Assembly: GCA_030629775.1 (NCBI GenBank)
Contig: DAOVOJ010000004.1
Coordinates: 1-34,405, forward strand
Origin: Candidatus Moraniibacteriota bacterium
Lineage (GTDB): Bacteria; Patescibacteriota; Minisyncoccia; JAHIHE01; DAOVOJ01
Direction of reading: 5' to 3'
Length of the DNA stretch: 34,405 nucleotides
Made by a program: the position numbers and the translations under genes. Positions within the stretch are counted from its first letter, which is position 1, and every line of letters begins with the position of its first letter. Under the pieces are notes generated by a model. That model ran no database searches. It had not been told where the DNA came from and saw only the letters and a program-made list of their open reading frames with translations. Below are positions 5,391-34,150 of this stretch, piece by piece.

Positions 5391-5466
5391 TTCAAGTTCC
5401 ACATTCCAAGTTTTAAGTTTTAAGTTCTAAACCTATGTTCCAAGTTCCAAGTTCCAAGTTCCAAGA
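5391..5466 (+). repeat. Heptamer array TTCCAAG running into the pilin start
   Basis: Units TTCCACA, TTCCAAG, TTTTAAG, TTTTAAG, TTCTAAA precede the ATG at 5435, and four exact TTCCAAG units follow it. The array thus spans the start codon and encodes the pilin leader. No facing inverted arm is seen nearby. Confidence 0.85.
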
Positions 5467-7703: not shown

Positions 7704-7738
7704 CGTGTAACGCAAAACGTATAACGTGTAACGTAAGA
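7704..7738 (+). repeat. Heptamer array CGTGTAA, left arm of gene-bearing element
   Basis: Exactly five 7-base units: CGTGTAA, CGCAAAA, CGTATAA, CGTGTAA, CGTAAGA, beginning one base after the pilin stop. The reverse-complement units (GTTACAC) occur at 8154-8181, on the other side of the four-helix-bundle gene. Confidence 0.85.
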
Positions 7739-7764
7739 CACACATAGTAAATTATATTAACACT

Positions 7765-8124
7765 ATGAAAGAGCAAAATCAATTTCATAACGAGTTAAAA
7801 AAATTAATGGATGAGTATGTTAATAAGGTTTATGATTATACTAAAAAGTTTCCAAGAGACGAATTGTTTGGAGTAATTTCGCAATTTAGGAGAGCAAGCT
7901 TATCAATAATACTCAATTATATTGAGGGATACGCAAGAGGAAAAAACAAAAGTAAAGTTTTAAAGAATTTTTTAGAAATCTCCTATGGCTCCTTGAAAGA
8001 AAGCAAGTATTTGGTCTATTTTTCTTACAAAAGAAAGTATTTAGATGAAAAAGAATACAGAGAATTAATAAAATTATCCGAAAGAATAGGCGCTATGCTT
8101 TGGGGAACCATAAAAAACATATAA
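7765..8124 (+). CDS. Four-helix-bundle protein (23S rRNA intervening-sequence protein family)
   Basis: A 119-aa all-helical protein. The core FPRDELFGVISQFRRASLSIILNYIEGYARG matches the signature of the four-helix-bundle family (TIGR02436/PF05635, IVP/S23), usually FPxxExxGLxxQxRRAAxSIxxNIAEG. The second half, LKNFLEISYGSLKESKYLVYFS, matches the family's LxxALGSAxELExxL segment. Members were first found in insertions inside 23S rRNA genes and are related to the Avd proteins of diversity-generating retroelements; their role elsewhere is unknown. No reverse transcriptase is visible here. The gene interrupts the pilin cluster and is enclosed by facing arrays of the heptamer GTGTAAC/GTTACAC (7704-7738 and 8154-8181). 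That suggests it was inserted together with them and has no job in the pilus. No ribosome binding site is seen. Confidence 0.9.
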   Translation: MKEQNQFHNELKKLMDEYVNKVYDYTKKFPRDELFGVISQFRRASLSIILNYIEGYARGKNKSKVLKNFLEISYGSLKESKYLVYFSYKRKYLDEKEYRELIKLSERIGAMLWGTIKNI

Positions 8125-8140
8125 TGCATATTATATTTTT

Positions 8141-8181
8141 GTTACATAAGTATGTTACACGTTACACGACACACGTTACAC
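8141..8181 (+). repeat. Heptamer array GTTACAC, right arm of gene-bearing element
   Basis: GTTACAT, then after six bases GTTACAC, GTTACAC, GACACAC, GTTACAC. It is the inverted counterpart of the array at 7704-7738. The ATG of the next prepilin (8152) falls within it. Confidence 0.85.
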
Positions 8182-8772
8182 GATAATGGTTTTACTCTTA
8201 TTGAAATGATAATCACTCTCGCTATCCTTGTTATTATGACGGGAGTGATCGTTACTTTTTTTATTTTTCTTTATCATGAACAGGCGGCTGATATTATCAG
8301 AATTAGACGGATAAATATTGCCAGTCACGCAATTAAAATAATGAGTTCTGAAATTAGAAAAATGAGTCGGGCGGAAGATGGCTCTTATACGATTGAATCG
8401 GCGAGCGGACAAACCTTGATATTTTATTCGGATGTTGATAACGACGGACTGACGGAAAAAATAGAATATTCCTTATCGGGAACAAACTTAGAGAGAAAAA
8501 TAATAGAACCGACCGGCGATCCTTATGAATATACTTCGGCTGAAACAGTAACCGTAACGGCGCGCGATATCAGAAACGGGACTGATCCGATATTTAAATA
8601 TTACGACGAAAGTTACACGGGCAGCGAAGCTTCGCTAGGTGATCCGGTAAATGTTACCGCAATAAAATTAATTGAAATCAGCCTGGACATTAATTCTGAT
8701 AATAATTATCTGACTCAGCCGTTTCACATTGAAACAAAAATCCATCCGAGAAATTTGAAGGAGTTTAATTGA
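8152..8772 (+). CDS. Type IV prepilin / minor pilin (PilW-like)
   Basis: A 206-aa prepilin. The leader MLHVTRHTLHDNG ends in G13, followed by FTLIEMIITLAILVIMTGVI, a textbook class III N-terminus with Glu at +5. The rest is a polar beta-rich region, with YTIESASGQTLIFYSDVDND typical of PilW/minor pilins that carry an N-methylation domain and a short structured head. A prepilin peptidase is needed but is not in the window. The leader is translated from the GTTACAC heptamer array; removing the array would remove the start codon. It lies between the four-helix-bundle gene and the PilX-like gene and is probably a priming minor pilin. Confidence 0.88.
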   Translation: MLHVTRHTLHDNGFTLIEMIITLAILVIMTGVIVTFFIFLYHEQAADIIRIRRINIASHAIKIMSSEIRKMSRAEDGSYTIESASGQTLIFYSDVDNDGLTEKIEYSLSGTNLERKIIEPTGDPYEYTSAETVTVTARDIRNGTDPIFKYYDESYTGSEASLGDPVNVTAIKLIEISLDINSDNNYLTQPFHIETKIHPRNLKEFN

Positions 8773-8774
8773 AG

Positions 8775-8887
8775 CGTATAACGTGTAACGTATATTATAA
8801 ATAATTTAAGTTACACGTTACACGTTTTGCGTTACACGTTACGTATTACACAGTATATAAAAATATGTTACACACTACACGCTACAC
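8775..8887. repeat. Empty heptamer inverted-repeat pair (GTGTAAC/GTTACAC)
   Basis: The left arm has CGTATAA, CGTGTAA, CGTATAT (8775-8795). After only 14 bp the right arm starts with GTTACAC, GTTACAC, GTTTTGC, GTTACAC, GTTACGT, ATTACAC (8810-8851), then GTTACAC, ACTACAC, GCTACAC (8867-8887). It uses the same unit as the pair around the four-helix-bundle gene but contains no gene. It runs over the start codon at 8865. Confidence 0.85.
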
Positions 8888-10334
8888 AAACCAAAAAGGT
8901 CTGATCACTCCTCTAATTCTCATCATCGCTTCAACAATGCTTATTTTTGCGACGGCGATCATAAATTGGTCAATCAGCGAACATAAGGATGCCAGCCGGA
9001 AAATCAGAACAACTCAGGCGCTTCAGATTGCCGAAGCGGGAGTGAATTATTACAAATGGCATCTAGAGCATGACGAAGGCGATTATCGGGACGGAAAAGA
9101 TTGGTGCTGTGACAACGATCCCGGCAAAAGTTTAATTGAATGCGGCGGAACTTGCGGCCCTTACGACCATCCATATTTAGATTATAACGATGTTAACATC
9201 GGCTACTTTTCTCTGCAAATAACTCCGCCGGAAGTTGGTTCTACAATCGTAACAGTGAAATCAATCGGCTATGCCTATGATGATGCTAATAATAAAAAAG
9301 AGATTACTTCGCGAGTCGGAAAAAGGTCACTGGCAGAATACAGTTTTTTAAGTAATACCCCGATCTGGATCGGCGCCGGTGAAGCAACTTCCGGACCGCT
9401 GCATTCCAATGGCGGGATTAGATTTGACGATGTCTGCAACACAGAAATAACCAGCGCGGTAGAAAATTACGACTGTGCTGACGTAGGACATGATTGCACC
9501 GGTATTAAACCTGGAATTTGGGGGTCAGGCGGACCAACAACTTACTGGCGTTTTCCTGTATCAGTAATTGATTACGATCTTTTTACAGTCAGTTTAGCGA
9601 ACATACAAACAAAAGCCGCCAAAGAAGATGGCACTTGTAATGGAGATAGCGGGGAGGGGAGAGGTATTTGTTTTGAAGACAGCGGAGCGGAAGGATATTT
9701 AGTGGAATTTTTATCGGACGCCACTGTTAATATCTATCAAGTTGACTCTTTAGAGTCGCCGTTAAAATATTGGAATTATCCCGGCTGGAAACAGGAAGCG
9801 GAAAAAATTGAAAATAAAACATTGCTGGGCAATTATAATATGCCTGACAACGGACTTATTTTTATTGAAGATGATATTTGGACAGAGGGAACAGTAAATG
9901 GTAAAGTGACAGTAGCAGCGGCTAAGTTTCCGGAAAATCAGAATAATTACGCTCAGATTAGAATAAATAGCAATATTCAATATTTAGCGCGCGACGGCAA
10001 TCATATTTTAGGACTGATCTCACAGGGAGATTTAACAGTGCCACGGCATGCTCCTGACAATCTTATTGTTGACGCCACTTTGCTTTCTCAAAAAGGACAT
10101 GTTTATTTTAGAAGATACGAAAACAGTTCTTTTGTGGTAAAGAATAATATAGAAATTTACGGCGGAATAATTACTAATTTATTTTGGACATGGAGTTATG
10201 TCACCAGTAGTGGTATAATAGTAAATGGATATACTACTACAAACACTATTTATAATAACAACCTTACTTTCAGTCCTCCTCCTTCTTTTCCAACCTCGGA
10301 AAATTTTGAAGTGTTGTCATGGAGTGAAGATTAA
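8865..10334 (+). CDS. PilX-like pilus assembly protein with large beta-rich head
   Basis: A 489-aa protein. The N-terminus has a short leader ending in G12 followed by LITPLILIIASTMLIFATAI, a pilin-like helix lacking the +5 glutamate, as in PilX/GspK-type minor pilins. The motif TTQALQIAEAGVNYYKWHL is the conserved PilX N-terminal segment. The head is Cys-rich at first (DWCCDNDPGKSLIECGGTCG), then resembles the DUF4900-type beta-helix seen in pilus-associated proteins (NGLIFIEDDIWTEGTVNGKV). It probably sits at the pilus tip complex with the two prepilins. The start lies in the heptamer array and the leader is repeat-derived. The lack of Glu+5 fits the first-added subunit in GspK-like complexes, which is inference. 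Confidence 0.82.
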   Translation: MLHTTRYTNQKGLITPLILIIASTMLIFATAIINWSISEHKDASRKIRTTQALQIAEAGVNYYKWHLEHDEGDYRDGKDWCCDNDPGKSLIECGGTCGPYDHPYLDYNDVNIGYFSLQITPPEVGSTIVTVKSIGYAYDDANNKKEITSRVGKRSLAEYSFLSNTPIWIGAGEATSGPLHSNGGIRFDDVCNTEITSAVENYDCADVGHDCTGIKPGIWGSGGPTTYWRFPVSVIDYDLFTVSLANIQTKAAKEDGTCNGDSGEGRGICFEDSGAEGYLVEFLSDATVNIYQVDSLESPLKYWNYPGWKQEAEKIENKTLLGNYNMPDNGLIFIEDDIWTEGTVNGKVTVAAAKFPENQNNYAQIRINSNIQYLARDGNHILGLISQGDLTVPRHAPDNLIVDATLLSQKGHVYFRRYENSSFVVKNNIEIYGGIITNLFWTWSYVTSSGIIVNGYTTTNTIYNNNLTFSPPPSFPTSENFEVLSWSED

Positions 10335-17672: not shown

Positions 17673-17681
17673 GTGGTATAA
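17673..17681 (+). promoter_or_regulatory. Extended -10 promoter before ftsA
   Basis: TGGTATAAT, a perfect TGnTATAAT, immediately followed by the octamer inverted repeat. The -35 region is weak. The same GTGGTATAAT string precedes ftsZ, suggesting matched control of the two division genes. Confidence 0.6.
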
Positions 17682-17684
17682 TTA

Positions 17685-17775
17685 TATTGTTAAATTGCTA
17701 CATTGTTAAATTGTTGTATTGCTGTATTATTTTAGCGGCGGTAAAACAATTTAACAATTTAACAATATAACAATT
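17685..17775. repeat. Octamer inverted-repeat pair (ATTGTTAA/AACAATTT) before ftsA
   Basis: The left arm is six units: ATTGTTAA, ATTGCTAC, ATTGTTAA, ATTGTTGT, ATTGCTGT, ATTATTTT (17685-17732). The right arm is four: AACAATTT, AACAATTT, AACAATAT, AACAATTT (17744-17775). The 11-bp centre includes GCGGCGG. A sister element with the same units lies after ftsZ at 24609-24683. As part of the ftsA leader it could form a long weak hairpin. Confidence 0.85.
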
Positions 17776-24584: not shown

Positions 24585-24608
24585 TGCGCATTTTGTTTTT
24601 GCGAAGAA

Positions 24609-24683
24609 ATTGTTGTATTGTTATATTGTTAAATTGTTACATATCAGCTGAAACAATTTAACAATTTGGCAATTTAACAATAT
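24609..24683. repeat. Octamer inverted-repeat pair (ATTGTTAA/AACAATTT) after ftsZ
   Basis: The left arm is ATTGTTGT, ATTGTTAT, ATTGTTAA, ATTGTTAC (24609-24640). The right arm is AACAATTT, AACAATTT, GGCAATTT, AACAATAT (24652-24683). The centre contains the palindrome CAGCTG. It has the same units and period as the element before ftsA (17685-17775). Confidence 0.85.
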
Positions 24684-24718
24684 AATCTGTTAATTTTTTT
24701 TGCTTAAATTTTTTAATT

Positions 24719-29180: not shown

Positions 29181-29188
29181 GAGAAAAT

Positions 29189-29252
29189 GAATCACGAATC
29201 ACGAATTAAGAATTTCTTATTCTTAATTCGTGATTTGTAATTCTTGATTCTT
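29189..29252. repeat. Heptamer inverted-repeat pair (GAATCAC) between efp and comEC
   Basis: The left arm is GAATCAC, GAATCAC, GAATTAA, GAATTTC (29189-29216). The right arm is ATTCTTA, ATTCGTG, ATTTGTA, ATTCTTG, ATTCTT (29219-29252). It ends at the comEC ATG. The unit GAATCAC also occurs three times in a row inside cysS at 31990-32010. Confidence 0.85.
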
Positions 29253-33643: not shown

Positions 33644-33872
33644 TAAGAGGGGGTTAGGGGTATATTATTTAAAGATAATTTTCAATTTTCAATTTCTAAT
33701 TTTCAATCAATTCTCAATGACTAAATTTCCAATAATCTAAATGTTTGGAAATTGAAAATTGATTATTCGTTGAAAATTGAGAATTGGAAATTGAGGATTT
33801 ACAAAACACACCCCTAACCACTCTCAAGAAAGAAATAATTGCCCACCCCTAACCCCTCTCGAGAAGGGAATA
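33644..33872. repeat. Nested repeat: CCCCTAACC-type arms around a heptamer pair
   Basis: The outer arms AAGAGGGGGTTAGGGGT (33645) and ACCCCTAACCACTCTCAAG (about 33810-33828) face each other. Inside are the heptamer arms AATTTTC, AATTTTC, AATTTCT, AATTTTC (33677-33704) and GGAAATT, GAAAATT, then GAAAATT, GAGAATT, GGAAATT, GAGGATT (33747-33799). A second CCCCTAACCCCTCTCGAG copy follows at 33845-33862. No gene is seen in 33624-33882. Confidence 0.8.
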
Positions 33873-34089: not shown

Positions 34090-34150
34090 ATGTGTAACAT
34101 GTAACATTATATTTTTATATAGTTATATGTTATACATTATACGTTATACG
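34090..34150. repeat. Heptamer inverted-repeat pair (TGTAACA/TGTTATA) in the pre-23S leader
   Basis: The left arm ATGTGTAACATGTAACATT (34090-34108) faces TGTTATA, CATTATA, CGTTATA, CG (34128-34150). It uses the same GTGTAAC unit as the elements in the pilin cluster. Confidence 0.75.

Follow-up and report, generated by a model that had tools for sequence, protein, structure and literature searches.

Genes of the S23/IVP family are annotated without a function across very many phyla, and the gene studied here raises the question of what such a gene does between two pilin genes, outside any rRNA gene. In the window, by which we mean the whole stretch of 34,405 nucleotides that was analysed, this gene lies between two short tandem arrays of seven-base units that face each other, and a second facing pair of the same units close by holds no gene. 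The original prediction had read this layout as an autonomous element accompanied by a non-autonomous derivative. We addressed the question by comparing the locus with other parts of its genome, with related genomes, and with family members from many phyla, and we concluded, with a probability that we put at about 0.77, that the gene and its two arrays are one copy of a small mobile element that has mobile gene-less derivatives.

The features of the locus and the other gene-less pairs of the window are listed in Table 1. The predicted enclosure of the gene by facing heptamer arrays was confirmed by the sequence, by an inverted-repeat match, and by the Pfam assignment. Read in order, the left array consisted of CGTGTAA, CGCAAAA, CGTATAA, CGTGTAA and CGTAAGA (two of the five being degenerate), and the right array, at 8154-8181, of GTTACAC, GTTACAC, GACACAC and GTTACAC. 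The neighbouring empty copy with its 14-bp gap was also borne out. Counted with its degenerate units, this gene-less facing pair spans 8775-8887, and over the 33 nt of positions 8806-8838 its right arm showed 94% complementarity with the left arm of the gene-bearing element, both arms including the odd unit CGCAAAA. In the window as a whole, CGTGTAACGTGTAA was matched 10 times with at most two mismatches, against 0.09 matches expected, and no shuffle reached 10.

Table 1. Gene, arrays and gene-less array pairs in the window.
Feature	Position	Strand	Basis or remark
Left array of gene-bearing element, five CGTGTAA-type heptamers	7704..7738	+	Sequence; TRF period 7
Four-helix-bundle gene (PF05635, S23/IVP), 119 aa	7765..8124	+	Pfam 89.8 bits, cut-off 33.8
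Start and leader peptide of downstream prepilin gene (MLHVTRHTLHDNGFTLIE; MLHVTRHTLH), translated from right array	8152..8187	+	Orthologue comparison
Right array of gene-bearing element, four GTTACAC heptamers, inverted relative to left array	8154..8182	-	TRF; inverted repeat
Left arm of gene-less (MITE-like) element	8775..8795	+	Sequence, TRF; facing pair
14-bp spacer of gene-less element	8796..8809		Sequence
Right arm of gene-less element	8810..8842	-	Inverted-repeat match, TRF, facing pair
More degenerate right-type heptamers, read as leader MLHTTRYTNQ of third pilin-like protein	8864..8888	-	
Gene-less facing pair, TATTGTTA unit of resident element L005 (contig C35)	17681..17774		
Gene-less facing pair, CACGAAT unit of resident element L001 (contig C4)	29184..29243		
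Third facing CGTGTAA-family pair, gene-less	34091..34150		Absent from original prediction

Three consecutive pilin-like genes begin within arrays (5393-5465, 8152-8187 and 8864-8890), and the leaders that they read from heptamers are MFQVPSSKFQ, MLHVTRHTLH and MLHTTRYTNQ. The window leaders MLHVTRHTLHDNGFTLIE and MLHTTRYTNQKG are translated heptamers; their element-free orthologues have the ordinary leaders MKSIRNQVSGFTLIE and MKKNIRQKGFTLIE. In another element (L008) the open reading frame translates the array as IQNSKFKIQNSKFKIQNSNS and reads on into the next pilin gene, which agrees with the earlier suggestion that family members can carry tails resembling translated heptamers. An array can come to serve as the leader peptide or the reading-frame end of an adjoining gene.

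We took flanks of 200 bp from 148 members of the family, 71 of them patescibacterial and 77 from many phyla, the latter found with the Xanthomonas protein XCC0516, and aligned each left flank to the reverse-complemented right flank, with a score threshold of 26 and with neighbouring ORFs of the same loci as controls. Flanks reached at least 26 for 79% of these 148 members, compared with 3.4% of 234 neighbouring ORFs (p = 1.7e-46), an enrichment of the kind anticipated by the original prediction; about one fifth of the 148 members scored below the threshold. The mean score was 37.9 in the patescibacterial and 35.6 in the many-phyla members (18.5 and 17.0 for the respective shuffles), and the signal was gone when a left flank was paired with the right flank of another element (means of 18.2 and 17.3). 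The repeat unit has 7 or 8 bases and is particular to each element. Among relatives of the source genome, 25 arrays of period 7 or 8 were found in 357 kb from ten that have the gene and 3 in 389 kb from ten that do not (p = 9e-6). Several copies of the gene were interrupted by stops or truncated. Two members with facing arrays were situated within the start of a 16S rRNA gene (L030 in G027:C46 and L050 in G003:C18), and three elements (L044, L045 and L048) lay between or adjoining tRNA genes, in the sense orientation where this was readable.

The source assembly (829 kb, about 94% complete) holds five PF05635 genes, and the four whose flanks are both readable are enclosed by facing arrays, each with its own unit (CACGAAT, TAGCTTC, CGTGTAA and TATTGTTA); a contig end interrupts the fifth, whose free side bears TTAACGAA units. 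A control search of laboratory E. coli K-12 found no member of the family. Array counts, made on 413 kb of stretches from this assembly, gave 131 arrays of period 7 and 70 of period 8 per Mb, and the same scan found hardly any arrays of other periods or in shuffled sequence. The strict detector of facing arrays overlooks most degenerate pairs, and array counts were used and its pair counts discarded. Gene-less facing pairs that match the five resident units numbered 12 in the 413 kb, compared with a median of 0 for 70 foreign units (p = 0.003). Four of CGTGTAA type occurred in the 413 kb, plus the one at 34091-34150, and two gene-less copies on contig C23 have an identical 12-nt loop. This repetition of gene-less copies of resident units in the genome supported the predicted relationship between an autonomous element and a non-autonomous derivative. 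Additional gene-less facing arrays, which like the pairs at 17681-17774 and 29184-29243 had not been part of the original prediction, were read by eye at 24607-24690 and 33677-33799, and four Y1_Tnp (REP-type) transposase genes are present in the same genome (G000: C60, C37, C63, C44).

Comparison of related copies in unrelated surroundings defined the borders of the unit. Resident element L005 and an element in a genome of another family (L052) were alike over 442 bp at 87.6%, comprising arrays and gene, and their flanks were unrelated; the likeness was confined to arrays and gene in the pairs L033/L034, L065/L074 and L057/L059 as well, and matching between related copies ended at the outer ends of the arrays. 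Array length itself changes in steps of whole units confined to one arm, in the manner expected of slippage, the left arms of L078 and L086 differing by two heptamers. The site occupied in the window was empty in two related genomes (G002 and G011), where the three consecutive pilin genes, matched by protein-level orthology, carry neither the gene-bearing nor the gene-less insertion; the spacer between the first and second pilin genes measured 8 and 1 bp in these genomes, that between the second and third 10 and 86 bp, and neither contained arrays. Of the two outcomes named beforehand as refuting the original prediction, a lack of array enrichment around family members and constant presence of the gene at this site in related genomes, neither occurred.

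An exact pair of filled and empty sites was found on Nostocales plasmids whose flanks are about 97% identical, where the unit is present in Trichormus ATCC 29413 and Scytonema NIES-4073 and absent from three aligned plasmids as well as from others listed. The empty site AAAAAGTAATTAACAAA corresponds to AAAAAGTAAT, the unit, and GTAATTAACAA in the filled plasmids, with (G)TAAT on both sides, that is, a duplication of 4-5 bp. This was the one insertion with a clean target duplication, and 4 and 5 bp are indistinguishable there; the other five compared sites were too diverged to be read for duplication, one of them fitting a 4-bp TTAG, and no duplication was readable at the window copies. The same plasmid site holds a decayed copy in Nostoc pC052_E. 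On plasmid B of Nostoc C052 (L090), a gene-less unit is nested in a second gene-less unit, the outer of which stands alone on plasmid A (L089) and is missing from plasmid D of this strain and from Nostoc C057; the nested unit in pC052_B contains about 100 bp of unrelated content. In Picosynechococcus, an element separates cas10 from cmr3 in the type III-B CRISPR operon of strain PCC 7003 and is absent from PCC 7002 (L081 compared with L255), and the end of cas10 is altered between the filled and the empty strain. On the basis of these comparisons we regarded as established the class to which the units belong, a widespread mobile element of many phyla with autonomous and MITE-like forms.

In order to relate the arrays to the protein, we compared arrays across elements. 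Non-orthologous pairs with at least 65% protein identity had a cross-array score of 23.1, compared with a null mean of 16.1 (0 of 5000 permutations), and the rank correlation between protein identity and array similarity over all 11,025 pairs was rho = -0.03. As the link between protein and array was seen only above about 60% identity, units presumably turn over quickly. The two arms of an element, when matched within the element, gave a pairing of 43.2, compared with 43.6 with the arms of a sister element; since the arms of one element match each other no more closely than they match sister arms, we make no claim of compensatory change or of a selected hairpin. Taken together, the comparisons give good support to recognition of its own arrays by the protein; that it also moves them we infer, and we consider its role in the element likely.

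The window protein was modelled by AlphaFold2 with a pLDDT of 96, and its closest solved folds were XCC0516 (2gsc) and BT_0352 (2rld), followed by the Avd proteins of diversity-generating retroelements (DGRs), to three of which (8ub7, 8ube and 4dwl) it was aligned by VIA-align with Z of about 15-16 over 104-108 residues. A Pfam search of this protein returned PF05635 and a weak bAvd match only (PF22296, 39.1 bits, under the cut-off of 40), with no recognised transposase and no Y1 (HUH) domain. The original description of the family as 23S-intervening-sequence proteins stood as regards S23/IVP (PF05635) and had left out this structural kinship to Avd. Six residues (Q40, R43, S47, N51, E54 and E79) were conserved at 97-99% over 149 members, five of them along helix 2 with a spacing of 3-4. 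The PF05635 matches L330, L331, L332 and L333 adjoin reverse transcriptase genes and are of the DGR Avd type. These four Avd-type members have neither facing arrays nor most of the invariant residues; two borderline flank scores beside reverse transcriptases (26 and 27) came from flanks without a heptamer period. In an Avd-type subset that was defined after the sequences had been seen, 1 of 6 members had arrays, compared with 129 of 164 others (p = 0.003). The strict motif Q..R...S...N..E, which was tried as a separator of array-bearing from array-less members, gave p = 0.18 and was rejected. Because Avd-type members are without both the residues and the arrays, the conserved site appears to be tied to the arrays, which suggests that these residues may serve array recognition or movement, and not the scaffold that is common to Avd.

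We propose the following model for the element. It would measure about 400-480 bp, would be bounded by inward-facing arrays of 7-8-base units, and would have a four-helix-bundle protein of the S23/IVP family as its sole product. This protein probably forms a pentameric ring, like XCC0516 and Avd, and the ring would bind its own arrays, either as DNA or as the RNA hairpin that they can form. Binding would bring about movement of the protein's own unit and, in trans, of gene-less derivatives; cutting and joining could be performed by the protein itself, through the six conserved residues, or by recruited host enzymes, and the intermediate could be DNA or RNA. The intervening sequences of 23S and 16S rRNA would be the same element inside rRNA genes. 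We advance only tentatively, and at less than even odds, a bolder version, according to which S23/IVP proteins would be a new class of recombinase, or the sequence-specific core of one, whose ring reads the tandem 7-8 bp end units and whose active site, formed by Q40, R43, S47, N51, E54 and E79, was lost in the DGR Avd branch, the units evolving with the protein so that each genome would have its own end code.

A different route, through RNA, would also produce copies of this kind. The hairpin unit would be excised from transcripts, as RNase III does with rRNA intervening sequences, inserted into other RNAs and reverse-transcribed, after which the DNA copy would recombine into the genome; the protein would act on a reverse transcriptase as Avd does. 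The common fold with DGR Avd is consistent with this route, as are the copies mentioned above that lie inside 16S rRNA genes or next to tRNA genes. Orientation points the same way: all 55 of the 55 patescibacterial genes that lie between two ORFs run in the direction of both, compared with 70% of background triples (p = 6e-9), and between co-directional neighbours in other phyla 44 copies were sense and 5 antisense. However, this sense bias would arise equally from selection against untranslated antisense inserts in operons, the DGR-type members that do adjoin reverse transcriptases are without arrays, and no reverse transcriptase match (PF00078) was found in the source assembly, about 94% complete, or in 40 of the 54 genomes searched, many of which bear elements; most of the element-bearing relatives had no such match. 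We consider the RNA route unlikely.

It could also be supposed that the protein is a passenger or a regulator and that a host recombinase, such as that of an insertion sequence or a Y1/HUH transposase, moves anything bounded by arrays. The lack of a known catalytic domain in the protein is in keeping with this, and the four Y1_Tnp genes of the source genome would offer a candidate. Nevertheless, five genomes (G024, G034, G040, G043 and G053) carry 2 to 5 elements with no match to Y1_Tnp or reverse transcriptase, and the unit changes with the protein; since a genome can hold several units, each belonging to a different protein, the pattern is not one that would follow from a single host enzyme, and we judged such a host-driven mechanism distinctly unlikely.

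In Xanthomonas, the XCC0516-type genes lie between accB and accC with facing GGGAATC heptamers on both flanks. Matches to two consecutive GGGAATC units (GGGAATCGGGAATC) had a median of 96.5 in the 30 Xanthomonas species with an intact gene, and numbered 0, 41, 25, 15 and 12 in the five species in which the gene is missing or degenerate (p = 4e-4, by a statistic that ignores phylogeny); the reversed pattern, used as a control in Xanthomonas, gave no matches. In Luteimonas, all 10 of the 10 oppositely oriented gene-less neighbours within 200 bp of each other face inward. A second Xanthomonas element, with GGGACCG arrays, lies between carA and carB in 3 of 35 species; the spacer at this site is variable, and no exact empty site was readable.

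The accB-accC copy is common to Xanthomonas, Luteimonas and Dokdonella (L095-L099), and its presence in three genera points to an old insertion, perhaps retained for some function. A domesticated role, in which mobility belongs to the past and some copies are retained for the cell, would account for this copy, which is kept in 30 of the 35 Xanthomonas species and degenerate or missing in 5. As a general explanation it seemed to us quite improbable: sites are not shared in Patescibacteria or on plasmids, several copies are broken by stops or truncated, and the carA-carB element occurs in just 3 of the 35 Xanthomonas species. To the suggestion that the arrays are immobile, being either simple repeats that slippage has lengthened or else terminators or regulatory hairpins of the gene, we give almost no credence, for although arrays do change by slippage-like steps, as in the two heptamers between the left arms of L078 and L086, and GGGAATC has been published as a G-quadruplex repeat (PMC4692102), filled and empty sites are exact, borders are sharp at the array ends, and gene-less copies are scattered, with none at the orthologous pilin junctions.

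If the gene is indeed the coding part of a mobile element, the S23/IVP family gains a role, the rRNA intervening sequences gain a source and a means of spread, and orphan heptamers such as GGGAATC of Xanthomonas are explained; the element would also be one without a known transposase, with short tandem arrays in place of fixed ends. Mobility of the rRNA form was suggested long ago. What is new is the presence of arrays at both ends, the pairing of array and protein, and the gene-less copies, which were undescribed in the open-access papers found. None of these papers connected the family with orphan heptamers, with gene-less copies, or with arrays outside rRNA, and for the family together with tandem arrays they contained nothing beyond the heptamers of Coxiella.

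Among known systems, the 23S rRNA intervening sequences of Coxiella and Leptospira have the same protein family, terminal inverted repeats around one ORF, and a similar size. That of Coxiella has 428 nt, with an S23p ORF and terminal inverted repeats, and its mobility had been suggested earlier; upstream of its ORF stand 2-3 tandem GACAGAT heptamers, the number differing between strains (PMC4990558). As the Coxiella protein is, according to one report, probably not made in vivo (PMC4990558), some copies of the element may be relics. Insertions with an IVP ORF have also been reported from the 16S and 23S genes of CPR bacteria (PMC11270868). Unlike these, the window copy and nearly all copies studied here lie outside rRNA genes, mostly between protein genes, and the 23S intervening sequences look like one niche of the element. 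The orphan heptamers offer a second comparison. GGGAATC forms 186 arrays and 70 convergent pairs in Xcc and was treated as a G-quadruplex repeat with no source protein named (PMC4692102), and for the TAACTGA repeats of Beggiatoaceae a mobile TAACTGA-binding protein was raised as a possibility, again with no source protein named (PMC4679880). The published GGGAATC repeat has the same unit as the arrays on both sides of the XCC0516-type gene of Xanthomonas.

DGR Avd proteins (4dwl, 8ub7) have the fold in common with the window protein, but the Avd-type members beside a reverse transcriptase have no facing arrays and few of the invariant residues, whereas the source assembly has no reverse transcriptase match and the window protein falls below the cut-off of the bAvd model. 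Insertion sequences are resembled in the exact filled and empty sites met in relatives, although a recognised transposase is absent from the element. REP/REPIN sequences with their RAYT, and MITEs with their insertion sequence, likewise combine one coding copy with scattered short non-coding, hairpin-like copies that have the same ends; here there is no Y1 or DDE transposase, and the ends are tandem 7-8 bp arrays that vary by element. As in MITEs, the gene-less copy is short and non-coding, has terminal inverted repeats, exists in several copies, and has a related coding element.
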